46,529 bases of DNA from an uncultured Lachnospiraceae bacterium (lineage in GTDB: Bacteria > Bacillota > Clostridia > Lachnospirales > Lachnospiraceae). This document shows positions 30,350 to 43,197 of the stretch, piece by piece. The notes beneath the pieces are model-generated. The model had not been told where the DNA came from, ran no database searches, and saw only the letters and a program-made list of their open reading frames with translations. Made by a program: the position numbers and the translations under genes. The stretch lies in contig CALWRT010000162.1 of assembly GCA_944384015.1 (NCBI GenBank), positions 1 to 46,529 of the forward strand, read 5' to 3'. Each line of letters begins with the position of its first letter. Position 1 is the first letter of the stretch.

Positions 30350-31492
30350 TTATTTGACGCCCATCCAGGAAGATATTACCATTTTCTGTACCTCGGACGT
30401 CCCCTCGTAGATTTCTGTGATTTTCGCGTCCCGCATCATCCGCTCGATCGGATAATCCCGCGTATAGCCGTAGCCGCCGAACAGCTGCAGACATCTCCTT
30501 GTCACATCACTGGCAGTCTCCGAGGCCACCAGCTTAGCCATGGCCGCCAGGTGACTGTAGGGTTCATGGGCGTCCTTCGCGCAGGCGGCCCGGTATACGA
30601 GCAGTCTGGCCGCGTCTACCCTGGCCTGCATGGCGGCCAGTTCAAACTGGGTATTCTGGAACTGGGAGAGCCGCTTGCCGAACTGCACCCTCTCCTTCAC
30701 ATAGGGGACAGTCTCGTCGATGGCACCCTGGGCAATTCCAACTGCCTGAGCGGCAATCCCGATCCGGCCTCCGTCCAATGTGATCATAGCCACCTTGAAG
30801 CCCTTGCCCTCCTCTCCCAGAAGATTCTCTTCCGGGACGATACAGTCCTCAAAAATCAGCTCACTGGTGGCCGATCCCCGAATTCCCATCTTCTCCTCAT
30901 GTTTTCCTATAGAAAAGCCTGGGAATCCTTTCTCCACAATAAACGCGGATATGCCGTGATTGCCTTTTTCTTTATCGGTCATGGCCATCACCACATAGAT
31001 GTCGGCCGGGCCCGCGTTTGTGATAAATACCTTGCTTCCATTGAGGACATAATGTCCATCTTTATGTACTGCCGTCGTCTTCTGCCCGGCGGCGTCAGTA
31101 CCGGCTCCGGGTTCTGTAAGTCCAAATGCCCCCAGCTTCTCTCCGCTAGCCAGCGGAACAAGATATTTCTTCTTCTGTTCTTCTGTCCCGAACAGGTAGA
31201 TGGGCGTCGCGCACAGGGAGGTATGCGCCGATACAATCACCCCTGTAGACGCGCACACTCTGGACAGTTCTTCCACACACTGAGCATAGGACAGATTATC
31301 CATGCCTGCTCCCCCGTACTCTTCTGGAAATGGAATTCCAAGCAGTCCCATCTCGGCCATCTTCGCCACAGTCTCCTGGGGGAACCGTTCTTCTCTGTCA
31401 ATGTCCGCCGCCAGAGGCTTTACTTCATTCTGGGCAAAGTCCTGATATAGCGCCTGCAAGTCCTTCTGTTCTTCTGATAAATGAAAATCCAT
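30350..31492 (-). CDS. acyl-CoA dehydrogenase / enoyl-CoA reductase with canonical Glu
   Basis: A 380-residue FAD enzyme closely resembling clostridial butyryl-CoA dehydrogenases. Visible: [11 protein letters not shown] and the KVFITNAG stretch (FAD/substrate binding), [33 protein letters not shown] and Glu363 in EIYEGTSE, the catalytic base. ATG at 31492 follows AGAGG. It lies 16 nt after etfA, so the complex EtfAB-ACAD is co-expressed, as in butyryl-CoA, acryloyl-CoA or caffeyl-CoA reductases. No crotonase, thiolase or hydroxybutyryl-CoA dehydrogenase is beside it, so classical butyrate synthesis is not supported by this locus. It may reduce the CoA ester made by the cluster's CoA-transferases. 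Confidence 0.93.
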
Positions 31493-31508: not shown

Positions 31509-32516
31509 TCAGGAATTTTTTAAAGTTTTTATCTCTTCAATCAATGCGGGGATGACATCGAACAAGTTCCCCACAATTCCATAATCCGCCACATCAAAAA
31601 TGGGAGCCTCCGGATCCTTGTTGATGGCGATGATCGTATCGGAGCCTGACATGCCCGCAAGATGCTGAATGGCTCCGGAAATGCCGCAGGCAATGTAAAT
31701 CTTCGGCGCTACTGTCTTGCCGGTCTGTCCCACCTGGTGAGCATGGGGAATCCACCCCGCGTCCACTGCGGCCCTGGATGATCCTACCGCTCCGCCGAGT
31801 ACTTCTGCCAATTCTCGGATGTAGGAGAAATTCTTAGCCTCTCCAAGTCCTCTTCCTCCGGATACGATAATCTCGGCCTCCTCCAGGTTCACAGCCTCAG
31901 CCACTTCTTTTACTCTCTCCAGAAGCTTCGTCTTGACCTTGTCAGCTTCCAGATGAATATCCTCATAGATGACCTCCGCCGTCCTTGTCTCGTCCTTCTC
32001 GCCCTTCTTGAACACCCCGGGTCGTACGGTGCCCATCTGAGGTCTTGTATCCGGGCAGAGAATCCGGGCCATCAGGTTCCCGCCGAACGCCGGGCGGGTC
32101 CATGCCATGTTCCCTGTCTCCTCGTCAATGTCCAGTCCCGTGCAGTCGGCGGTTAGTCCGGTGCGAAGCCGGCAGGCTACTCTTGGCCCGATATCCCGCC
32201 CGTTATTCGTCGCTCCGATCAGCACGATGGACGGCTTATATTTTGTGATCAGCTGCTCCAGGGCGTAAGAAAACGTATCGGTGTTATAATTGAAATACTC
32301 GTATCCTTCCACGACGAGCACCTGGTCAGCCCCGTAGGCGACAGCATTTTTTACAACTTCTTCGGTGTCCTTCCCGATGACCACTGCCACCAGTTTCTCG
32401 CCGGTTTCATCTGCCAGGCGGCGTCCCGGCGTCAGGAGCTCATAGCCGACATTTTTCGCCTTGCCCTCCTCGGTCTCCAGGAATACCCATAGATTCTTAT
32501 ATTCTTCAAAGCTCAT
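31509..32516 (-). CDS. etfA: electron transfer flavoprotein alpha subunit
   Basis: A 335-residue protein. The N-terminal part (about 1-190) has the ETF nucleotide-fold domain, and the C-terminal part (about 210-330) has the FAD-binding VGSSRAAVDAGW, QVGQTGKTVAPKIYIACG, GISGAIQHLAGM and INKDPEAPIFDVADYGIVGN. ATG at 32516 follows AGGAGG. The gene order etfB-etfA-acd with gaps of about 15 nt is that of the flavin-based reductase complexes of anaerobes. No N-terminal ferredoxin extension is present, unlike some caffeate-type EtfA proteins. Confidence 0.96.
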   Translation of the reverse strand: MSFEEYKNLWVFLETEEGKAKNVGYELLTPGRRLADETGEKLVAVVIGKDTEEVVKNAVAYGADQVLVVEGYEYFNYNTDTFSYALEQLITKYKPSIVLIGATNNGRDIGPRVACRLRTGLTADCTGLDIDEETGNMAWTRPAFGGNLMARILCPDTRPQMGTVRPGVFKKGEKDETRTAEVIYEDIHLEADKVKTKLLERVKEVAEAVNLEEAEIIVSGGRGLGEAKNFSYIRELAEVLGGAVGSSRAAVDAGWIPHAHQVGQTGKTVAPKIYIACGISGAIQHLAGMSGSDTIIAINKDPEAPIFDVADYGIVGNLFDVIPALIEEIKTLKNS

Positions 32517-32531
32517 CTTCTCGGCAACCTC

Positions 32532-33332
32532 CTACATGATTTTCGCGTCGGAAAGCAGTCCCACAAGCTCTCTGGCAGCTTCATCGGCCGGCTTTCCCTC
32601 AATCTTGATTCCGTGCTTCTCCCGCACCGGCGTGTAAGTCTTCTTCACCTTCGTGGGAGACCCTTTCAGCCCGCACCTGCTTGTATCGATCGGCATGTCA
32701 GCTGCGGTAAGGGTCGGGATGACCGCCTTATTCGCCGCCATCTTCGAGCGGATCGTCGCGTACCGGGGTTCAAAGGGTGTCTTTACAATGGTGATGACAG
32801 CCGGAAGTTCCGCTGTGATGTAGTCATAACCCTCGTCGCTCTCCCTCTTTACCTGCAGCATCCCATCTTCCATGATCACATCCGACGCATAGGTAATCTG
32901 CGCATAGCCCAAATGTTCTGCCAGCTCTGGGCCTACTTGTCCGGTATCCCCGTCAATGGCCTGCTTGCCGCAGAAGATCAGGTCGAAGGGAGCCCTTTCC
33001 TTCTCTTCTACTGCCTTCAAGGCGACGGAGAGCACATAGCTTGTCGCCAACGTGTCAGAGCCTCCGAAGGCCCTGTCGCTGATTAAATATGCCTGATCTG
33101 CCCCTACAGAGAGACATTCCTTCAAGGCTGCCTTCGCCTGCTCCGGTCCCATGGACATCACGGTCACTTTGCCTCCCACTGCCTCTTTCAGGCGGACAGC
33201 CACCTCCAGGGCGTATCCGTCAAAGGGGTTGACAATGCTTGGCACCCCTGCCCGGATGAGCGTATTGGTCACCGGATCAATCTTAATCTCTGTCGTGTCC
33301 GGAACCTGCTTCACACACACTAAAATATTCAT
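32532..33332 (-). CDS. etfB: electron transfer flavoprotein beta subunit
   Basis: A 266-residue protein, ATG at 33332 behind AAGGAGG. It starts with the typical MNILVCVKQVPDT. The loop AIDGDTGQVGPELAEHLG (about 123-140) matches the pattern found in bifurcating ETFs that bind a second FAD in the beta subunit, in contrast to the AMP-binding mitochondrial type. The complex can therefore probably use NADH to reduce an enoyl-CoA and ferredoxin together. This is a family-based inference; the ferredoxin link also fits the NfnAB pair elsewhere in the window. Confidence 0.95.
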   Translation of the reverse strand: MNILVCVKQVPDTTEIKIDPVTNTLIRAGVPSIVNPFDGYALEVAVRLKEAVGGKVTVMSMGPEQAKAALKECLSVGADQAYLISDRAFGGSDTLATSYVLSVALKAVEEKERAPFDLIFCGKQAIDGDTGQVGPELAEHLGYAQITYASDVIMEDGMLQVKRESDEGYDYITAELPAVITIVKTPFEPRYATIRSKMAANKAVIPTLTAADMPIDTSRCGLKGSPTKVKKTYTPVREKHGIKIEGKPADEAARELVGLLSDAKIM

Positions 33333-33453: not shown

Positions 33454-34722
33454 TTACAGGTAATACACCAGATAGATACCTATCAGAATACAGATACCTG
33501 ACAACACATTGATGAGACCGCCGGCCTTGATATAATCTTTGAACCGGTATCCTGCTGGCTGTACCTGGGTCATACATACGACGGATATCGGTGTCGCAAT
33601 ACCAAGCTTAATGCCGGAAGCGGTGGCCAGGATAATCGGCAGGGGGTCTAATCCAAGTCCCTCGCTGATGACCATGACGATCGGGACGAGAATCGCTGTC
33701 GTGGCTGTATCGTTCATAATATCAGACAGCAGAGATCCTACGATAAACATGATGATGCACATGCCGATGCCGCTCTGGGCAATCGGTCCCGCCAGGTCGA
33801 TGATTGCGTTGGCGATCAGCAGGCCGCCCCCGCTCACATCCAGCGCCTGAGAGAATCCGATGGAGCCGGCGGCGACAATGATGGTCGTCCAAGGCACAGA
33901 ATCCATCGCCTTCTTCGTGTCAATACAGCCTGTCAGCATAACGATCACCGTGCCGATGAGCGGCGCAGTTCCGAAATCGTCAAAATAGAGCAGACCGACA
34001 ATCGTCAAGATAAGGGTAACTCCGCAGATAATCATTTTCCGCTTGTCATATTCTTTTGTCTCCGCCTCTATCGCTGTATTGCTCAGAGGGACATCTTCGA
34101 AGTCGAACCATCTCTCCTGAAGTTTCACGCCCCAGATACCCCAGAAAATGATCAGGATAATCAGCGCCGGAGCCGCGATCAATGTCGGCTCAAAAGCCCC
34201 GATGGAGCGGTATCCCATCTCCACAAGGATGGCTGACGCCGCCACCATAGAGGACGCGCTGAAACCGGTCAGGTTGTTGCCCAGCACGGAGCCGGCTCCC
34301 ATGGGGAAATAGACCATTTTTCTTCGTATCTTCCCGTTGGACTGTACAATGATGCTGTCCACGATGGGAATCATAATCGCGATGGTAAGGGAACCCACAA
34401 TAAAGATTGACAAGAATGAAGAGATCGCCAGAATCGCAATCACGCAGAGCCTCTCATTTTTGCCTCCCACCTTGTACAGCAGGCCGCCGATTTTCTGAGC
34501 GATGCCGTTCTCTATGCAGGCCCGTCCGATAATTGCCATACCTGACATCAGGAACATGATATTGTTGCTGAATCCTCCGTATACGGTGCTCCAGTCCACG
34601 ATCCCCGTAATCGCCATCGCGATCATAGCCATAATCGTCGTCACCCAGATGGGAATCTTCGGTATCAGGTAGAGTATCAGCACGACGAACAAAATGATGA
34701 CCGACAATACATCCATACCCAT
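33454..34722 (-). CDS. SLC13/DASS-family (anion permease) transporter, copy 1
   Basis: A 422-residue membrane protein with about 11 hydrophobic segments, of the ion transporter superfamily that includes dicarboxylate/Na+ symporters and ArsB/NhaD. ATG at 34722 behind GAGGAGGAAG. Seen: an early FLMSGMAIIGRACIENGIAQK, a middle GAGSVLGNNLTGFSASSM and a late SDIMNDTATTAILVP, the last being the usual second substrate/Na+-site motif. It lies after an acyl-CoA dehydrogenase gene, with a perfect hairpin between. It is clearly homologous to the protein at 40876-42156. It probably imports or exchanges the acid handled by this cluster. Confidence 0.87.
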   Translation of the reverse strand: MGMDVLSVIILFVVLILYLIPKIPIWVTTIMAMIAMAITGIVDWSTVYGGFSNNIMFLMSGMAIIGRACIENGIAQKIGGLLYKVGGKNERLCVIAILAISSFLSIFIVGSLTIAIMIPIVDSIIVQSNGKIRRKMVYFPMGAGSVLGNNLTGFSASSMVAASAILVEMGYRSIGAFEPTLIAAPALIILIIFWGIWGVKLQERWFDFEDVPLSNTAIEAETKEYDKRKMIICGVTLILTIVGLLYFDDFGTAPLIGTVIVMLTGCIDTKKAMDSVPWTTIIVAAGSIGFSQALDVSGGGLLIANAIIDLAGPIAQSGIGMCIIMFIVGSLLSDIMNDTATTAILVPIVMVISEGLGLDPLPIILATASGIKLGIATPISVVCMTQVQPAGYRFKDYIKAGGLINVLSGICILIGIYLVYYL

Positions 34723-34805: not shown

Positions 34806-35984
34806 TTATTTCCTCTCAGGATCTCTGCCCGCCATCGCCTTCATAATGTTCTTGTGCTGGATCTCATTGGTTCCGCTGAAGATCTGGAAGATTTTCGCGT
34901 TTCTCATCAGCCGCTCTACCGGATAATCCTTCATGTACCCATACCCGCCGTATACTTGAACCGCATCCATTGTTGTCTGCATTGTGCAGTCGGAGGTGTA
35001 CATCTTAATCATGTTCGGCAGATATCCGATGGGAATGCCGTCCCTCAGGCAGGTCAGGCCTTCAAATATCATGGAGCGGCATGCTTCTGTCCTAGCCTGC
35101 ATATCGGCCAGCTTAAACCCGATCCCCTGCTGATCGATGATCCGCTTGCCGAACTGCCTTCTTGTCTTCGCGTATTCAATGGCATAGTCCAGGGCAGCCT
35201 GGGCGATGCCCAGGGCAAACGTCGCTCCCAGCGTCCTGCCCTCCATGCTGATCTCCTGCATGCTGATGATGAAGCCTTTTCCCTCTTCCCCGATTACGTG
35301 GTCTGCCGGAACCCGCACATCCTCAAAGATGACTTCCGCCGTCTCATTCAAGTGCAGTCCCATCTTATTTTCTTTCTTGCCGATCTTGACTCCCCGTTCC
35401 TTCTCCACAAGGAAGAATGTCACGCCCTCGCTGACCTTCTTCGTCTTGTCTGTCCAGGCAGCCACAACGAAGAAGTTGGATACCGGCGCCATGGAGATGA
35501 AGCACTTCGTCCCATTGATCACCCACTCATCTCCATCTTTTACTGCGGTTGTGCGCATGGCCGCCGCGTCAGATCCTGCTCCTGCCTCTGTGACGCAGAA
35601 GGAGCCTCTCGCGTCCCCGCTCAAGAACCGCTGTGCCCATTTGGCCTTCTCCTCATCGCTCATCTTCGTGTCAAGTATGAAGTGGAAATACGAGCCGCAG
35701 TTGTGAAATCCCATTGTAAATCCAGCGTCAATCTTGGCCATCTCCTCCGCGATCACACCTTCTGTTACAATATCAAAGCCAAGCCCGCCCCACTCTTCGG
35801 GGATATTCATCGCATAATATCCGGCCTCTGCCAGTTTGTAATGGACGTCCAGCGGGTACTGCCCCAGTCCGCCGTCTGCCTCCTCATATTCCGCAATCTT
35901 TGGAAGCAGTTCCTTCTCTAATATTTTTCTGGCTCCCATAGCCAGTTCTTTCTGTTCTTCTGTCGCGTGACGATAGTTTACCAC
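34806..35984 (-). CDS. acyl-CoA dehydrogenase-family protein without canonical catalytic Glu
   Basis: A 392-residue flavoprotein. The GTG at 35984 lies 8 nt behind GGAGG; the TTG at 35990 is too close to it. The fold and FAD features are complete: CVTEAGAGSDAAAMRTTAV, RRQFGKRI, YGGYGYMKDYPVERLMRNAK and GTNEIQ. However, the residue before GTNE, which is the catalytic Glu in most acyl-CoA dehydrogenases, is Ser370 (QIFSGTNE). The alternative base position in helix G used by isovaleryl-CoA dehydrogenase is a Gly next to Glu (SMEGR). It may work as a reductase, use another base, or pair with the enzyme at 30350. It is the fourth gene of a run after two CoA-transferases and a hydratase. Confidence 0.88.
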   Translation of the reverse strand: MVNYRHATEEQKELAMGARKILEKELLPKIAEYEEADGGLGQYPLDVHYKLAEAGYYAMNIPEEWGGLGFDIVTEGVIAEEMAKIDAGFTMGFHNCGSYFHFILDTKMSDEEKAKWAQRFLSGDARGSFCVTEAGAGSDAAAMRTTAVKDGDEWVINGTKCFISMAPVSNFFVVAAWTDKTKKVSEGVTFFLVEKERGVKIGKKENKMGLHLNETAEVIFEDVRVPADHVIGEEGKGFIISMQEISMEGRTLGATFALGIAQAALDYAIEYAKTRRQFGKRIIDQQGIGFKLADMQARTEACRSMIFEGLTCLRDGIPIGYLPNMIKMYTSDCTMQTTMDAVQVYGGYGYMKDYPVERLMRNAKIFQIFSGTNEIQHKNIMKAMAGRDPERK

Positions 35985-36028
35985 GATCAAATCCTCCTTA
36001 ATGTTTATTCAACTACTGTGAACAGTAA

Positions 36029-36934
36029 CTATTTCCAAATCATCGTTCCATTGCTTACCAGCAGCTTATTGTCCCTGCCGAACAGCTTATAGCACACTTT
36101 GCCCTCTTCCAGCTTCCATCCGTGGAGCTTCAGCGCCTCTCCAGGATAACAGATGCTGCGCAGCTGGCCGCCGAAGTGGGTTACCCTCTCGGTCTGGTAG
36201 GGGATGAGCTTCTGGATCATCATTCTGCAGGCAAACCCAAGGGTACACAGCCCCTGCATAAAGGTCCCCTCGTATCCGTATCCCTTGCCCACCGACGGAT
36301 CTACGTGTGTGCTGTAGGTATCTCCCATCAGGCGGTACAACACTGCCTGATTGTCTGCCAGCTGATCTTCTACGACAAAGTCTGGCTCTCTGTCCGGATA
36401 TACGACGCCGCCGGAGCCTTTGAACGGCTCTCCTCCGAAGTTGCCGAAGGCCGCGTGGTAGTGAAGGCTCGTCAAGTCGGCTACCGGGTTGCCGGCCAGG
36501 TCGAACAAGTTCATGGTCATCTCTCCTACAACGCCCTTGTCTCCCCAGTCGTACACTTTATTTACCCGGTCTTTGGTCAGGAATGTGCCGCCAAAGGGTG
36601 TGACAGGCTTGTAGATATCTACGTCCATGGCCATGTGCAGACGGTTCGGAATATTGCCGTTTCTCGCCTCGATAATGACATCTCCCAGTATCTCATTGGG
36701 CGCGTAGGGCACTTCCCGCACAGGCTGCATCAGAATGGAATTCAGATAGGGCGTCATATAGAAGGTCGGCAGCGCCTTGAAATCTCCGCTCTTTTCATAG
36801 ACATACGGCAGGTCATCCTTCGTCGCCCCTACCGCGATGTTGTAGAGGGCCACGTCCCTCCAGGTGTAGTCCATGCGTCTCGGCCCTAAGCCTGTTCCGA
36901 TAATGTGGGAAAACATGTTTTCTTCTCTGCTCAT
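36029..36934 (-). CDS. MaoC-like (R)-specific enoyl-CoA hydratase, double hot-dog
   Basis: A 301-residue protein. The frame is open to 36970, but the ATG at 36934 has AAAGGAGG in front. The N-terminal half (about 30-165) is a hot-dog domain, and the C-terminal half (about 185-295) carries the hydratase-2 signature: Tyr, then GDTYSTHVDP with Asp205 and His210 as the catalytic pair. In common enzymes the stretch is GDxNPLH and a later His-Gly occurs; here it is Tyr-Ser-Thr and Gln-Gly (TFMQGL), so the pocket differs. It would add or remove water on an enoyl-CoA made from the cluster's CoA-transferases. It is 13 nt downstream of the first CoA-transferase. Confidence 0.83.
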   Translation of the reverse strand: MSREENMFSHIIGTGLGPRRMDYTWRDVALYNIAVGATKDDLPYVYEKSGDFKALPTFYMTPYLNSILMQPVREVPYAPNEILGDVIIEARNGNIPNRLHMAMDVDIYKPVTPFGGTFLTKDRVNKVYDWGDKGVVGEMTMNLFDLAGNPVADLTSLHYHAAFGNFGGEPFKGSGGVVYPDREPDFVVEDQLADNQAVLYRLMGDTYSTHVDPSVGKGYGYEGTFMQGLCTLGFACRMMIQKLIPYQTERVTHFGGQLRSICYPGEALKLHGWKLEEGKVCYKLFGRDNKLLVSNGTMIWK

Positions 36935-36947
36935 ATTCGTTCCTCCT

Positions 36948-38180
36948 TTACTGATTTGGTGAAATATCACCGTACATCTCTTTTGTCTTGGCGGCCGCCT
37001 GCTCCAGCACCGGATCCATGAGCTCGTGGACGGTCTGCGTATCGGCCACCTCAGACAGCACTTCGATCGTATGCTGCCCTAACGCTGCCGCGAGATAATC
37101 TGTCTCCCGCTCCACCCCGCTTATCAACAGCGGATTGCCTGGGACGCGGAAAGTGGTCCCATTCTCATATACCGCATTGACGAAGGACTTGCGGAATTTT
37201 ACCTGGGGATGCTCCTTGACTGCCTCGTAGTCATTGATTCTTCCGTACACAAGCTTCTTAGACTCCAGCAGCCTGATCATGTCCTCGCTGTCGTACTGCG
37301 CGAATACCCGGCGTACTTCCTCCTCCACCTCCAGATAGTTCCTGCCCCGCAGCGCCATCGTGGCGAAGTTGGGATTTTCCAGCCACTGCAGCTGGCCGAG
37401 AGCCTCTGCGAAACTCTTAAATTGAGCATCCGTACCAATGGTAATCATCAGGGGTACGCCGTCTCTGCATAAGAAATCTCCGATGGGGCTGGCCTGCGGG
37501 TAACGGTTGCCGTTGGGTTTGGGGACAATGCCGTTTCGCAGGAAAACACTGAGCATATTCTCCTGAAGAAGCAGCAGGGAGTCCATCATGGACGCGTCAA
37601 TTCTCCGCCCGCGGCCTGTCCGCTGGGCATCCAGCATGCCGATCAGCGTCCCGATGCATCCCATGAGCCCGCCTGAATAGTCGGCGATGGCGCCGCCGCA
37701 CTTTAGTGGGTGCCCGCCTGTCTCTCCCGTAATGCTCATGACACCGGACTCCGCCTGTACAGTCTGATCGAAGGCCGCCCGCCCCGCATAAGGTCCTTCC
37801 TGCCCATAGCCCGAGATGGATGTATAGACAATACGCGGATTGATACTTGCCAGGAGTTCGTAGGTAATGCCGAATTTCTCCATGGTTCCCGGCTTAAAAT
37901 TCTCTACGACAGCGTCTGCTGTCTTGACCAGTTCCAAGAACAAAGCCTTCTGCCTGCTGTCTTTCATATTGAGGACGACAGATTTTTTGCCGCGGTTTCT
38001 TGTGGCGTAGTGGCTGCTGCCTCCTCCCTCCATGATGTTGCCATAGCGGGTGCTGTCTCCTAGCGGCGGGTTTTCAATCTTGATAACTTCCGCGCCGAAA
38101 TCACCGAGTATCATCGTACAGACCGGGCCGGACATAAATTGTGTAAAGTCCAGAATACGGAGCCCCTCCAAAGGCTTCAT
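36948..38180 (-). CDS. class III CoA-transferase (CaiB/BaiF family), copy 1
   Basis: A 410-residue CoA-transferase. ATG at 38180 behind AAAGGAGG. It begins with LRILDFTQFMSGPVCTMILGDFGAEVIKIE, the standard N-terminal fold split here as LRILDFTQF and GDFGAEVIKIE. The catalytic Asp138 lies in AAFDQTVQAESG. Family members move CoA between carboxylic acids without ATP (carnitine, formyl/oxalate, bile acid and 2-hydroxy acid types). It neighbours a second, distantly related CoA-transferase, a MaoC hydratase and an acyl-CoA dehydrogenase, so it should activate or recycle the acid handled by the cluster. Confidence 0.93.
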   Translation of the reverse strand: MKPLEGLRILDFTQFMSGPVCTMILGDFGAEVIKIENPPLGDSTRYGNIMEGGGSSHYATRNRGKKSVVLNMKDSRQKALFLELVKTADAVVENFKPGTMEKFGITYELLASINPRIVYTSISGYGQEGPYAGRAAFDQTVQAESGVMSITGETGGHPLKCGGAIADYSGGLMGCIGTLIGMLDAQRTGRGRRIDASMMDSLLLLQENMLSVFLRNGIVPKPNGNRYPQASPIGDFLCRDGVPLMITIGTDAQFKSFAEALGQLQWLENPNFATMALRGRNYLEVEEEVRRVFAQYDSEDMIRLLESKKLVYGRINDYEAVKEHPQVKFRKSFVNAVYENGTTFRVPGNPLLISGVERETDYLAAALGQHTIEVLSEVADTQTVHELMDPVLEQAAAKTKEMYGDISPNQ

Positions 38181-38226
38181 GCCGATTCCTCCTTTCCTCT
38201 TTCCGCGGCCGCCGTTATCCGGCGCC

Positions 38227-39423
38227 TTACTTGCTGCTGCCCGCGGCCCCTTCGTTCAGCATCTGCTGGATATCTTCGTCTGCATAGCCATATTCTTTCA
38301 GAATTTCTATCGTATGTTCGCCGATCTTGGGCCCTCTCTCATGCCGTTCGGTCCCGCTGTCCACATTGTTGAATTTGATAGGCGAGGCCGGGACAACAAT
38401 CTCTCCATCTGTGCTGTCTGCCGGCGGAACTGTGGCCTTGATCTTGTACAAGTATTTATTGGCCAGCGCCTGGGGATCTTTCATAACTTCCTCCGTTGTC
38501 TGGACAATGTTCACCGGCGCGTCGATGGATTTCAGCCTTCTAATCGCCTCGTCCCTTGTCATTTTGCTGAAGGCTTCATCCAAAATTGCCGTGAACTCTC
38601 TGGAATGCTCCTTCATCGTATCCTCATAGGAGCTGTACTTCCCTACCAGATCCGGGCGGTCAATGACCTCTGTCAGGAATCGGTTGAAATAGCGGTCGAA
38701 CTGGTTGAACAAGGACAGCACGAACCATTTGCCGTCTGAGCACTGATAGGTGTTATTCAGCGGACGCCTCGGCTCCAGCCTGGACTTCGGATATTTCTCT
38801 CCATACTGTACTTCCACAATCGCGTCATGGTTGATATAGATCGCCGTGGACAGGAGGGAGCACATAACCTGGCACCCTTCCCCTGTCTTCTCTTTTCCGT
38901 ACAGTGCCGCCGCAATGCCTCCGAACAGGAGCCCGCCGGTAGAGATGTCTCCGACTGCGATCGGCGGCACGACCAGAGTGCCTTTCTCCGCGATATCTAC
39001 CAGCATGCCGCCTTTGGCCCAATAGGCCACCGGGTCGTACCCCGCGTCATTGGCCTCCTCGCCCTCTGTGCCGAATCCGGTCAGAACCGCATAGATCAGA
39101 TCCGGGCGGTCCTTCTTCAGCGTCTCGTAGTCCAGCCCCAATTTCTTGACTGCCTTGGGCCGGTAATTTGTCACAAATACGTCAGTTCCCGCGATGAGCC
39201 GCCGCATGGCCTCCATCCCCTTCTCGGTCTTCAGGTTCAGCGCGATTGCCCGTTTTCCCGTTGTATAGAAGTCGTATTTGTGGACATCTCTCGTGGAGCT
39301 GCCGGTGAGCGGCTCTACCCAGATCACTTCCGCCCCGAATTCACACAGCAGCTTCGTGGCAGAAGGGCCTGACCCCGCCAGGCAGAAGTCCAACACTTTC
39401 ACCCCTTTTAGTGGTTGATACAT
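38227..39423 (-). CDS. class III CoA-transferase (CaiB/BaiF family), copy 2
   Basis: A 398-residue CoA-transferase with ATG at 39423 behind CGAGGAGG. The N-terminus has VKVLDFCLAGSGPSATKLLCEF and GAEVIWVEP. The predicted catalytic Asp130 sits in DAGYDPVAYWAKGG, a version seen in relatives acting on 2-hydroxy acids and aromatic acids (HadA/FldA-like). It differs clearly from the neighbouring copy. It starts the run CoA-T2, CoA-T1, hydratase and acyl-CoA dehydrogenase. The pair may handle separate donor/acceptor acids, or form a heteromer. Confidence 0.92.
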   Translation of the reverse strand: MYQPLKGVKVLDFCLAGSGPSATKLLCEFGAEVIWVEPLTGSSTRDVHKYDFYTTGKRAIALNLKTEKGMEAMRRLIAGTDVFVTNYRPKAVKKLGLDYETLKKDRPDLIYAVLTGFGTEGEEANDAGYDPVAYWAKGGMLVDIAEKGTLVVPPIAVGDISTGGLLFGGIAAALYGKEKTGEGCQVMCSLLSTAIYINHDAIVEVQYGEKYPKSRLEPRRPLNNTYQCSDGKWFVLSLFNQFDRYFNRFLTEVIDRPDLVGKYSSYEDTMKEHSREFTAILDEAFSKMTRDEAIRRLKSIDAPVNIVQTTEEVMKDPQALANKYLYKIKATVPPADSTDGEIVVPASPIKFNNVDSGTERHERGPKIGEHTIEILKEYGYADEDIQQMLNEGAAGSSK

Positions 39424-39538: not shown

Positions 39539-40861
39539 TCAGCCCAGCCATACCGCCAGCGGCAGTCCCACGCACAAGGATGCCAGCACCGGGATTGCCA
39601 TACATGTCACCCATATAGGAAAGTAAGCCTCCCTCACCGATGTGTGATAGTCGCTGATGCACACCTGCAGGCTTCCGTTGTACGGCATGGTTCCCAAGGA
39701 CAGCGCACCCATGCACAGCATCCGGTGCAGATATCCCATGGAAATCCCCGATGCTCCATAGGATGCGAACAGGGGCATCAGATACGGGATTACCGTATTC
39801 AGCGCATTGATGGCGGAGCCGGTACAGACGGACATCACGGCCCCCGCGCCGAAGGCCAGGAGATAGGGCTGTATTTCCATACTCCCCAAATGTTCCAACA
39901 GATATTGGAACGCAGGCGTCTCCATCAGAACGCCGCCGAGTCCTCCGGCCAGCGACACCGTCGCGATATTCCCCACGCCTTTCAGAAATCCGGACTCTGT
40001 CAGCCTAAGCCATCTCCTCGGCGGCAGCCTCCGGACATGCAGCAGGGCACCTGCGGCCGCTCCGGCGAACAGGGCAGCCTGTATGGGAAATGCGCATAGG
40101 TTATACAACATGAGGACAAGCAAGATGGGCAGCACTGCCCGCACGGCCCGCCGGCCGCATCCCTCTCCCTCTGTCATTTCGCCGCGCCAGCCTGTATCAC
40201 CCGCATTGTTGCCGAAGGTGCGTCCCTTCTTCCTCCACCGCCTTGCCTGCCACACCAGATAGCAAATATCCAGAATACCCATCATAGCACATGCCGCAAG
40301 ACCCGGGACAGCTCCAGCCCCCATATCGGTTCCCATCAATTCAATACATACCGTGTTATGGCTGGAAGGCGTGTACGGGGCGCATAGGACAAAGCTCCAC
40401 GCCCCGCATATCATGCCTGCCAGTCCGATATCCCTGGAATAATTTGCCTTCCTGCACAGAGAAATGGCCACGGGAGCTGCCACCTGGTAGACCCCAATCG
40501 CCACCATCCCCCCCAGGGTAAGCAGCGCTGAAAGCACACAGACCGAGGCGGGTGCGTATTCCGCAGGGATATGCAGCGCAATCCATTCCGCCAGATCGTC
40601 TGTCGCTTTTGTCTCGATCATAACTTGGGAAAATACTGATACCGCGATGAAGGTAAACAGCAGATTTTGAAAAGTGCCTCCGGCACTTCCCGCAAAGGTG
40701 ACGAACAGTCCCTCTGTGACAGGAAGCCCGGAGGTCAAAAGGATGAGTATGGAGGCAAGCGGAGCTGCCAATACCATAGAGTAACCTCGGTAACAGGCAA
40801 AGGACATGACAAAAATGGCTGCCAGCATACCTGCGAAACTCACAATCAGAGAAATCGACAT
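39539..40861 (-). CDS. GntP/CitMHS-like carboxylate permease
   Basis: A 440-residue membrane protein with about 12 hydrophobic segments and a charged central loop (about 198-240). The pattern resembles the GntP family of gluconate and other hydroxy-acid permeases, with the stretch CAPYTPSSHNTVCIELMGTD and, near the C-terminus, CTGSAINALNTVIPYLMPL. ATG at 40861 has only a weak ribosome binding site (GGGTGA), 14 nt after the SLC13 copy 2 stop, so translation coupling is likely. A hydroxy acid substrate would fit the CoA-linked enzymes downstream. Confidence 0.75.
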   Translation of the reverse strand: MSISLIVSFAGMLAAIFVMSFACYRGYSMVLAAPLASILILLTSGLPVTEGLFVTFAGSAGGTFQNLLFTFIAVSVFSQVMIETKATDDLAEWIALHIPAEYAPASVCVLSALLTLGGMVAIGVYQVAAPVAISLCRKANYSRDIGLAGMICGAWSFVLCAPYTPSSHNTVCIELMGTDMGAGAVPGLAACAMMGILDICYLVWQARRWRKKGRTFGNNAGDTGWRGEMTEGEGCGRRAVRAVLPILLVLMLYNLCAFPIQAALFAGAAAGALLHVRRLPPRRWLRLTESGFLKGVGNIATVSLAGGLGGVLMETPAFQYLLEHLGSMEIQPYLLAFGAGAVMSVCTGSAINALNTVIPYLMPLFASYGASGISMGYLHRMLCMGALSLGTMPYNGSLQVCISDYHTSVREAYFPIWVTCMAIPVLASLCVGLPLAVWLG

Positions 40862-40875
40862 AACTTATCACCCAT

Positions 40876-42156
40876 CTAGAAATACAGTACATGCAAAGCG
40901 ACTGCCGTGACAATCACCGACAGGATATTCAGGAATCCTCCCATACGCAGATAATCCTTGGCGCGGTATCCGGCGGTCAGCGTCATAGTAATGGTCGATA
41001 CACAGATGGGCGTGGATACCGACAGATTGACGCCGACGGCCACGGCCATCACGAAGGGGAACGGGTCATACGAGAAATTCTGGGCCATCATCAGGCTGAT
41101 TGGCACGAGCATGACCGCCGCTGCCGTGTTGGAGCAGAAATTGGAGATCAGCGTGCTGATAATCAGCATGGTCAGGCACATGGCGAAGGGCGTGGTGCTG
41201 ATGGTCCCTACCAGATCCAGCAGGACATTGGCCGCCAGCTGGGCGCCGCCGCCCACTTCCAGCCCCTTCGCGAATCCAATGGCTCCTCCCACGATGATAA
41301 TCGTATTCCAGTCAATTTTGCGGAACACGGTCTTCTCGTCCAGGCACTTGGCAAGGATGAGAATCGTCGCCCCAGCCAAGGCCACCGCCGCGATATCAAT
41401 GACCCCGATGTAGAAGAAGACCAGGCAGCAGCAGAATACTACTGCCGTAAAGATCATTTTTTTCTTGCTGCGCCGTTCATTCACTTCTTCTTTCTCCACG
41501 TAATCAGGCAGTACATCCGGGAAGTCAAAGATCTTATCCTGCATCCGATACCCAAAGGTCATGTATACAAGAAGACAGGCGATATAGGCTGGAGCCCCCA
41601 CCGGCAGCGGTGCCAAGAAAGCCACGTCTCCGCCGTGCCACAGGGAGGAATTCTCTAGGAGTCCTATGGATGTCATCATGGATATGGATCCGATAATGGA
41701 CATATTGCTGCTGAGGATCCCTGCCACCGCGATGGGATAATAGGCATCTTTGCGCCGGATGGCTTCCCCTTTCGATTCCCTGGCCATACTGTCTACAATG
41801 GGCATCATCAAAAGCAGAACTGTCGTGGAAGTAAAGAAGATAGACATAAATCCAGCCGCGAGGAAGAATAGTACGACAAGCCACTTTTTCTTCGCCCTCA
41901 GATGGCTGGTCAAAAATTTCCCGATCGCCTGCGCCAGCCCGGTCTCCGTAAATGCCTCCCCAATGATCATCAGCCCTGCCGTCGTGAGGGTGGCGCTGGC
42001 CGCGAAGCCGGAGAACGCCTCTTCATAGGTAAGTACCCCGGTAATTGCCATTGCCAGCATGGCGAAAATCGTTGTCACCGACAGCGGAATTTTTTCTGTC
42101 ACATACAGGACAATGGCTATAGCCACGATAATAATAGATGTAACCGCCGTGTTCAT
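40876..42156 (-). CDS. SLC13/DASS-family (anion permease) transporter, copy 2
   Basis: A 426-residue membrane protein homologous to the one at 33454-34722 along its length (shared IPxxVTTIxAMxAMAITG and MMPIVDSM-type motifs). ATG at 42156 follows AAGGGG. It is the first gene transcribed away from the LysR regulator, so it should be directly regulated by it. Na+-dependent uptake of a di- or monocarboxylate is the usual role. Having two SLC13 copies and a GntP-type permease in one cluster suggests several related acids or substrate/product exchange. Confidence 0.87.
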   Translation of the reverse strand: MNTAVTSIIIVAIAIVLYVTEKIPLSVTTIFAMLAMAITGVLTYEEAFSGFAASATLTTAGLMIIGEAFTETGLAQAIGKFLTSHLRAKKKWLVVLFFLAAGFMSIFFTSTTVLLLMMPIVDSMARESKGEAIRRKDAYYPIAVAGILSSNMSIIGSISMMTSIGLLENSSLWHGGDVAFLAPLPVGAPAYIACLLVYMTFGYRMQDKIFDFPDVLPDYVEKEEVNERRSKKKMIFTAVVFCCCLVFFYIGVIDIAAVALAGATILILAKCLDEKTVFRKIDWNTIIIVGGAIGFAKGLEVGGGAQLAANVLLDLVGTISTTPFAMCLTMLIISTLISNFCSNTAAAVMLVPISLMMAQNFSYDPFPFVMAVAVGVNLSVSTPICVSTITMTLTAGYRAKDYLRMGGFLNILSVIVTAVALHVLYF

Positions 42157-42306: not shown

Positions 42307-43197
42307 ATGAATCTTCAACAACTCATTTACTTTCGTGAAGTTGCATCTACCTTACATTTTACCAAGGCGGCTGAGAATTTATATATTTCCCAGTCCACGC
42401 TGAGTCATGCCATCAACTCCCTGGAACGGGAATTGGATGCCCCCCTTTTCAGCCGGCAGATCGGCACGAAAGTGTTTCTCACGAAATACGGAGAAGAATT
42501 TCTTCCCTATGTGAATACCATCCTCCAGTCCATCGAGGACGGCAAGGCCTCCGTCAAAAAGCTCCGAGATCCATACAGCGGCGTCGTCCGCTTTGCCTAT
42601 GGTTTTATCAATGCTTTCGAGATTGTCAGCAATGTCTTCCGCCAGTACTACCTGGAGAATCCTGACAGCAATATATCCATTCAATTTATCATCAACAATG
42701 GCCGCAAGCCTCTGGAAGATCTGCTGATCGCGAATGAAGTGGATCTGGCTTTTACCACTACCATTCCCCAGGGCAATAAAGTATTTGAACACGTTCCCCT
42801 CTACACTCAGCAGTTATTCGTCTATCTTCCGAAAGATCATCCTCTTGCCCGCCGTTCCTTCCTGCATGTGGATGACATCAAGGAGCAGCCCCTGCTCCTC
42901 TACAATCAAGGAGGCAATCTGGCCAACCATGTATGTGAAATGTTCACATCCCGCGGCTATCGTCCGAACATTCTTCGATATGTAGGCGATTGGATGGAAC
43001 AGTTCATGCTTGTCTGCATTGGGATGGGAATTACCGTCTCCCCAATGATCCCATTAAACGGCATGAATTTGGCAGTTCTCCCTCTGGCGGAAAAAGACGC
43101 TCAGAGAGAACTCTTCTTATACTGGCTGAAAGATTCTATGATGTCTACCGCAGTACAGTTTATCCGCGACTATTTCATTGAGCATATTCCTAAGTAA
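42307..43197 (+). CDS. LysR-family transcriptional regulator
   Basis: A 296-residue LysR regulator. ATG at 42307 follows AGGAGG. The N-terminal winged helix-turn-helix (about 1-60) contains FREVASTLHFTKAAENLYISQ-type sequence, split as FREVASTLHFTKAA and LYISQSTLSHAI. The rest (about 90-290) is the LysR substrate-binding domain. It is divergent from the SLC13/GntP genes, and downstream of these come the CoA-transferases, hydratase and dehydrogenases, so it probably senses the acid or its CoA-derived product and controls at least the transporter operon. It ends at a bidirectional terminator. Confidence 0.94.
   Translation: MNLQQLIYFREVASTLHFTKAAENLYISQSTLSHAINSLERELDAPLFSRQIGTKVFLTKYGEEFLPYVNTILQSIEDGKASVKKLRDPYSGVVRFAYGFINAFEIVSNVFRQYYLENPDSNISIQFIINNGRKPLEDLLIANEVDLAFTTTIPQGNKVFEHVPLYTQQLFVYLPKDHPLARRSFLHVDDIKEQPLLLYNQGGNLANHVCEMFTSRGYRPNILRYVGDWMEQFMLVCIGMGITVSPMIPLNGMNLAVLPLAEKDAQRELFLYWLKDSMMSTAVQFIRDYFIEHIPK

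Follow-up and report, generated by a model that had tools for sequence, protein, structure and literature searches.

The gut-bacterial acyl-CoA dehydrogenase (ACAD)-like protein encoded at 34806–35984 on the minus strand of the window (the whole 46,529-nucleotide stretch analyzed here) carries Ser370 in its J-K loop where the canonical enzymes have a catalytic Glu. We consider it probable that this is a flavin-dependent acyl-CoA dehydrogenase/enoyl-CoA reductase, linked to electron-transfer flavoprotein (ETF), with its base moved to Glu248, as in isovaleryl-CoA dehydrogenase (IVD), LCAD, and CaiA. On this view helix G (Glu248) would have taken over the catalytic acid/base from the J-K loop (Ser370), and Glu248 would exchange the alpha proton. 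This base arrangement is known in kind from those three enzymes, and the protein is most likely an ordinary enzyme whose base has moved.

The 392-residue reading frame likely starts with GTG at 35984, which has GGAGG 8 nt upstream; a TTG at 35990 was rejected as the start, its spacing to GGAGG being too short. Matches to PF02771, PF02770, and PF00441 (the N-terminal, middle, and C-terminal ACAD domains) are all above gathering scores. Ser370, in the context FQIFSGTNE, is encoded by AGC at 34875–34877 (minus strand), and translation and alignment place it at the canonical J-K loop Glu (MCAD Glu376). The Glu before GT that characterizes MCAD/SCAD-type enzymes is therefore absent. The sequence-only reading gave the right coordinates and residue number, without the minus strand, and was also correct that Ser370 replaces the catalytic Glu, as seen from the AGC codon and from Glu363 in the EIYEGTSE motif of the partner dehydrogenase at 30350. 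Its statement that the FAD-binding features are complete is borne out by the motifs TEAGAGSD and KCFIS, and RRQFG is present as well.

Across the 113 acyl-CoA dehydrogenases of the compared loci, only two have Ser at the J-K position, both from one clade of Ser-type and Gly-type enzymes (the Ser/Gly clade). The second of them, L093, comes from another genome, is 66% identical, and encodes the same Ser and Glu pair with the codons TCC and GAA. The source genome is a draft assembly of 187 contigs, so that Ser370 might be attributed to a sequencing or assembly error or to a decaying gene. However, AGC differs from GAA and GAG at all three bases and L093 encodes Ser through another codon, which excludes a read error; with an intact frame and close relatives in existence, the probability of this explanation is negligible.

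Register within helix G was counted from the conserved G-x-G-F that opens the helix, using the PDB sequences of IVD (1ivh) and LCAD (8w0t) as references. Both enzymes use a helix-G Glu as base (PMC11153573), and it lies 11 residues past the second Gly of G-x-G-F. Glu248 (codon GAG, 35241–35243, minus strand) stands 11 residues beyond Gly237, and thus in the alignment occupies exactly the catalytic position, matching IVD Glu254 and LCAD Glu291. Based on this alignment and its location in model helix 237–252, we propose Glu248 as the catalytic acid/base. Every member of the Ser/Gly clade has one extra helix-G residue, and the alignment puts this insertion directly after 248, at Gly249 (35238–35240, minus strand; alignment and model). 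Earlier it had been noted that the alternative site in helix G lacks Glu, which does not hold when the count begins at G-x-G-F. The miss probably arose from counting from the C-terminal side, across the insertion, because the clade’s extra residue puts Glu one place off when one counts back from the C-terminal segment of helix G. With a helix-G Glu and a non-acid J-K residue, the protein has base placement of the IVD/LCAD type, which is a mechanistic class and not a clade.

The two sites show an inverse relation across the family. In an alignment-based count of 113 distinct ACAD-like sequences, a helix-G Glu was found in none of the 101 dehydrogenases with Glu or Asp in the J-K loop, as against eight of the 12 without, which have Ser, Gly, Ala, or Pro at that position. 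The remaining four are sisters of the Ser370 enzyme, and outside the Ser/Gly clade a helix-G Glu is present in all sequences lacking a J-K acid (6/6). Fisher’s test returned a value of about 1e-9, which overstates the independence of the sequences because they are related.

The AlphaFold model of the Ser370 protein displays a complete ACAD fold with a mean pLDDT of 94.9, and within the core the values are lowest about residues 241–250 (about 85). Helix G runs from 237 to 252, breaks at 253, and resumes from 254 to 274, compared with an unbroken helix G at 231–267 in the control model of the 30350 partner. Glu248 sits within an uninterrupted helical stretch of the predicted structure, and because the break comes after it, the extra residue is predicted to be absorbed beyond Glu248, so that this Glu keeps the register set at the helix start. 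The one-residue insertion beside Glu248 could nonetheless turn its side chain away. VIA-align superposition of the model on IVD (8sgr) gave a Z of 50.8 and an rmsd of 1.7 over 383 aligned residues, and the top structural hits (IVD, isobutyryl-CoA dehydrogenase, the short/branched-chain enzyme, and further ACADs) scored equally, with Z of about 50. A separate feature of the model is a split helix E (87–97 and 100–104, in the region of residues 84–104); the predicted helix E of the partner is single (81–101). LCAD unwinds helix E, enlarging its pocket (PMC11153573).

Known enzymes with a comparable arrangement resemble the Ser370 protein to differing degrees. IVD (1ivh, 8sgr) shares the helix-G Glu (Glu254), the lack of a J-K Glu, the ETF linkage, and the fold (Z about 50), but is only 29% identical and has no insertion in helix G, and its J-K residue is Ala, not Ser. 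At this identity the Ser370 protein does not belong to the isovaleryl-CoA dehydrogenase family; its place in the tree is within the Glu-type ACADs of gut clostridia. LCAD (8w0t, 8w0z) likewise has its Glu (Glu291) in helix G, with Gly at the J-K position, while differing in identity (31%), in its substrates, and in an unbroken helix G. The LCAD Glu291Gln variant is inactive (PMC11153573). E. coli CaiA (K-12 sequence) also has a helix-G Glu without a J-K acid, its loop motif being SGG, and its neighbors include a class III CoA-transferase and the Etf-like FixAB. It differs in being 27% identical, in lacking the helix-G insertion, and in having the hydratase CaiD, a crotonase, rather than a MaoC-type enzyme. 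The MCAD double mutant T255E/E376G (1egd, 1ege), a match in the fold search, is an engineered version of the same base transfer, although it is a human laboratory mutant with Gly instead of Ser. The sequence-only reading had offered three options, and among these the use of a different base is the best supported, by the alignment of Glu248, the inverse family pattern, CaiA, and the model.

Several more specific identities were considered and rejected. AcrC, an acryloyl-CoA reductase, is the best NCBIfam match of the Ser370 protein and shares an Etf gene neighborhood, but the score of 320 bits compares with a cutoff of 640 bits (NF042972), and the 30350 partner is much nearer at 541 bits. Scores for CaiA (NF002885; 155 bits against a cutoff of 540) and 3-sulfinopropanoyl-CoA desulfinase (NF042439; 230 bits against 600) likewise fall far short of their cutoffs, as does the score for cyclohexane-carbonyl-CoA dehydrogenase in NCBIfam. 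A further known ACAD without a J-K Glu is IaaF, a benzylmalonyl-CoA dehydrogenase; it is decarboxylating and ETF-independent and has a GGG motif (PMC8360864) where the Ser370 enzyme has FSG.

The surrounding genes suggest a CoA-ester pathway connected to ETF. Directly upstream on the minus strand lies a MaoC/MFE-2 hydratase-2-type enoyl-CoA hydratase (36029–36934; PF22622, PF01575) that keeps its GDxxxxH motif, followed on the same strand by two class III CoA-transferases, CaiB1 (36948–38180; profile matches, orthologues) and CaiB2 (38227–39423; profile matches, relatives), a GntP-like permease (39539–40861; Pfam), and a DASS/CitMHS-type anion permease (40876–42156; profile matches), with a divergent LysR-type regulator on the plus strand (42307–43197; profile matches). 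Downstream of the dehydrogenase, all on the minus strand, are another DASS/CitMHS-type anion permease (33454–34722; profile matches), EtfB (32532–33332; translation, with 58–82% identical genes in other Etf clusters), an AcrA-like EtfA (31509–32516; NCBIfam match), and the second acyl-CoA dehydrogenase (30350–31492), which is AcrC-like and has the canonical Glu363 (NCBIfam match, translation, control model).

Both CoA-transferases appear from their sequences to keep the Asp of the formyl-CoA transferase active-site motif (GDxxxGG or ADxxGG). CaiB1 has orthologues that are 72% (L104) and 67% (L102) identical, and CaiB2 has relatives that are 54% and 42% identical, all next to Gly-type sisters of the Ser370 enzyme. 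In another genus, the Gly-type sister L118 is accompanied by EtfA, EtfB, LysR, MaoC, a CoA-transferase, and a GntP-like permease. The recurrence of these gene sets links the Glu-less enzymes to CoA activation, with an additional link to ETF in L118 and the window. The two class III CoA-transferases (36948–39423) are adjacent and different, and by analogy with the bbu pathway, in which two such enzymes, BbuB/C, make a hetero-oligomer (PMC8364193), they may form one too. Elsewhere, in clusters of related dehydrogenases, the translations at L110:13571–14998 and L106:15044–16432 resemble MmgE/PrpD-family proteins. We found no literature specific to this gene cluster in gut bacteria.

Taken together, the CoA-transferases, MaoC, EtfAB, and transporters suggest an ETF-linked enoyl-CoA reductase. 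An acid (hydroxy acid) would be imported by the transporters, the adjacent CoA-transferases would attach CoA, and the MaoC hydratase would then yield the enoyl-CoA, hydration being reversible; judging from gene context, the Ser370 enzyme would reduce this product, EtfAB supplying the electrons. From the transporters and transferases, the substrate may be a carboxylic acid and might be a dicarboxylate. Given an anaerobe with a hydratase and the analogy with CaiA, the reductive direction seems likelier than the oxidative one. A stricter version holds that the protein is a CaiA-type one-way enoyl-CoA reductase, with its base in helix G and a reaction that in the cell would run only toward reduction; such an enzyme would fit relocation of the base to Glu248, the difference being one of direction alone. 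CaiA places its Glu likewise and is encoded near CaiB, CaiD, and FixAB, and the MaoC and EtfAB genes beside the dehydrogenase fit hydration/dehydration followed by reduction. However, base placement leaves the direction free, since IVD and LCAD oxidize, and we judge the chances of a locked reductase to be evenly balanced. The earlier proposal of a one-way reductase is accordingly plausible from context and from CaiA, which is annotated as a crotonobetainyl-CoA reductase, but is not a consequence of the Ser alone.

The presence of a second, canonical dehydrogenase in the same Etf cluster raises the question of whether the Ser370 protein lacks catalysis of its own, or plays a supporting role, as one subunit of a heteromer with this partner at 30350; a heteromer had also been suggested in the sequence-only reading. 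Pairs of different dehydrogenases with EtfAB recur in this genome, which has 14 ACAD matches, and would fit such an association. The two proteins are, however, a mere 38% identical, and the FAD and CoA motifs of the Ser370 protein are intact. No second dehydrogenase was found beside the L118 Gly-type sister and its EtfAB on their 13-kb contig, and both Etf and a 30350-type partner are absent from the L101 and L104 contigs. The 2.8-Mb source genome has four further Etf clusters (L105, L106, L107, L108) with 85–87% identical copies of the 30350 protein, which is therefore not dedicated to the Ser370 enzyme. Each of these copies lies near a different, more divergent dehydrogenase. Because contigs with sister genes do not carry the partner, an obligate heteromer was set aside as the leading explanation, and we regard a heteromer with the 30350 protein as very improbable.

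In a tree of 50 sequences, the Ser pair (98/95), the Gly trio (100/99), and the union of these two sister groups (100/98) were recovered, and the Ser/Gly clade adjoins the Asp-type L097 (100/99); this entire group branches within Glu-type enzymes from the same genomes and from related ones. L118 joins the clade in the tree as a further Gly-type lineage. As its branching order within the clade is not fixed by the tree, either a gain of Glu248 in the Ser branch or its loss in the Gly lineages would account for the distribution. The clade is rare: it was found in the source genome, in two genomes from the sequence scan, and in one more (Gly-type) among 397 genomes of the family, and at the thresholds used no further members were found in 392 genomes of the order and 398 of the phylum beyond the source genome. 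The outgroup enzyme (L097, L103) has a J-K Asp (SIFDGTNQ) and no helix-G insertion, and adjoins MaoC, a CoA-transferase, and a GntP-like permease. A four-residue insertion, ADGG (residues 36–39, before a conserved Y/F-P), occurs only in the Ser/Gly clade and is absent from L097 and the Glu-type enzymes.

The Gly-type sisters (L091/L092, the same as L010/L009; L095; and L118:5684–6916) combine a J-K Gly with Ala, Thr, or Trp in helix G, leaving both known base positions without a carboxylate. Their gene clusters are intact, one of them with EtfAB and MaoC. A ten-sequence comparison yielded only D37, G38, G39, H48, I103, W177, S185, E196, K378, N379, and R387 as clade-specific residues, and none of these eleven appears, on sequence grounds, to be an obvious candidate for a new base common to the clade. 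Since the sister branch without Glu248 retained its genes, a base may be dispensable in this subfamily. The Ser370 protein itself could be a base-independent flavoenzyme whose catalysis involves no proton abstraction by Ser370 or Glu248, acting for example through loss of an alpha-carboxylate or through water protonation in a one-way reductase. The similar gene sets around sisters with Ala, Thr, or Trp at 248 favor this, as do IaaF and 3-sulfinopropionyl-CoA desulfinase, ACADs without a J-K Glu that use other routes, decarboxylation in the case of IaaF (PMC8360864). Yet both the Ser370 protein and L093 retain Glu248 at a position proven in other ACADs, and a malonyl-type substrate is unsupported, making base independence of this protein unlikely. 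Somewhat less unlikely, though still doubtful, is that this small, Lachnospiraceae-type subfamily as a whole (Ser370/Glu248 and Gly/no-base enzymes) performs ETF-linked CoA-ester chemistry without a carboxylate base, via a decarboxylative or substrate-assisted carbanion or strict one-way reduction, with Glu248 a partial or secondary solution.

Relocation of the base to Glu248 thus stands as the preferred reading of the Ser370 enzyme, and the Gly sister branch is the better lead to new chemistry. A missing catalytic residue is easily misread in this family because the ACAD base has two sites that are far apart in sequence, and here a one-residue insertion conceals the second. If Glu248 is the base, the Ser370 enzyme would represent a further move of the base between these two sites, within a small clade that branches inside the Glu-type enzymes. 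The base-less sisters in intact gene clusters, in turn, make carboxylate-free, ETF-linked dehydrogenase catalysis a testable question.
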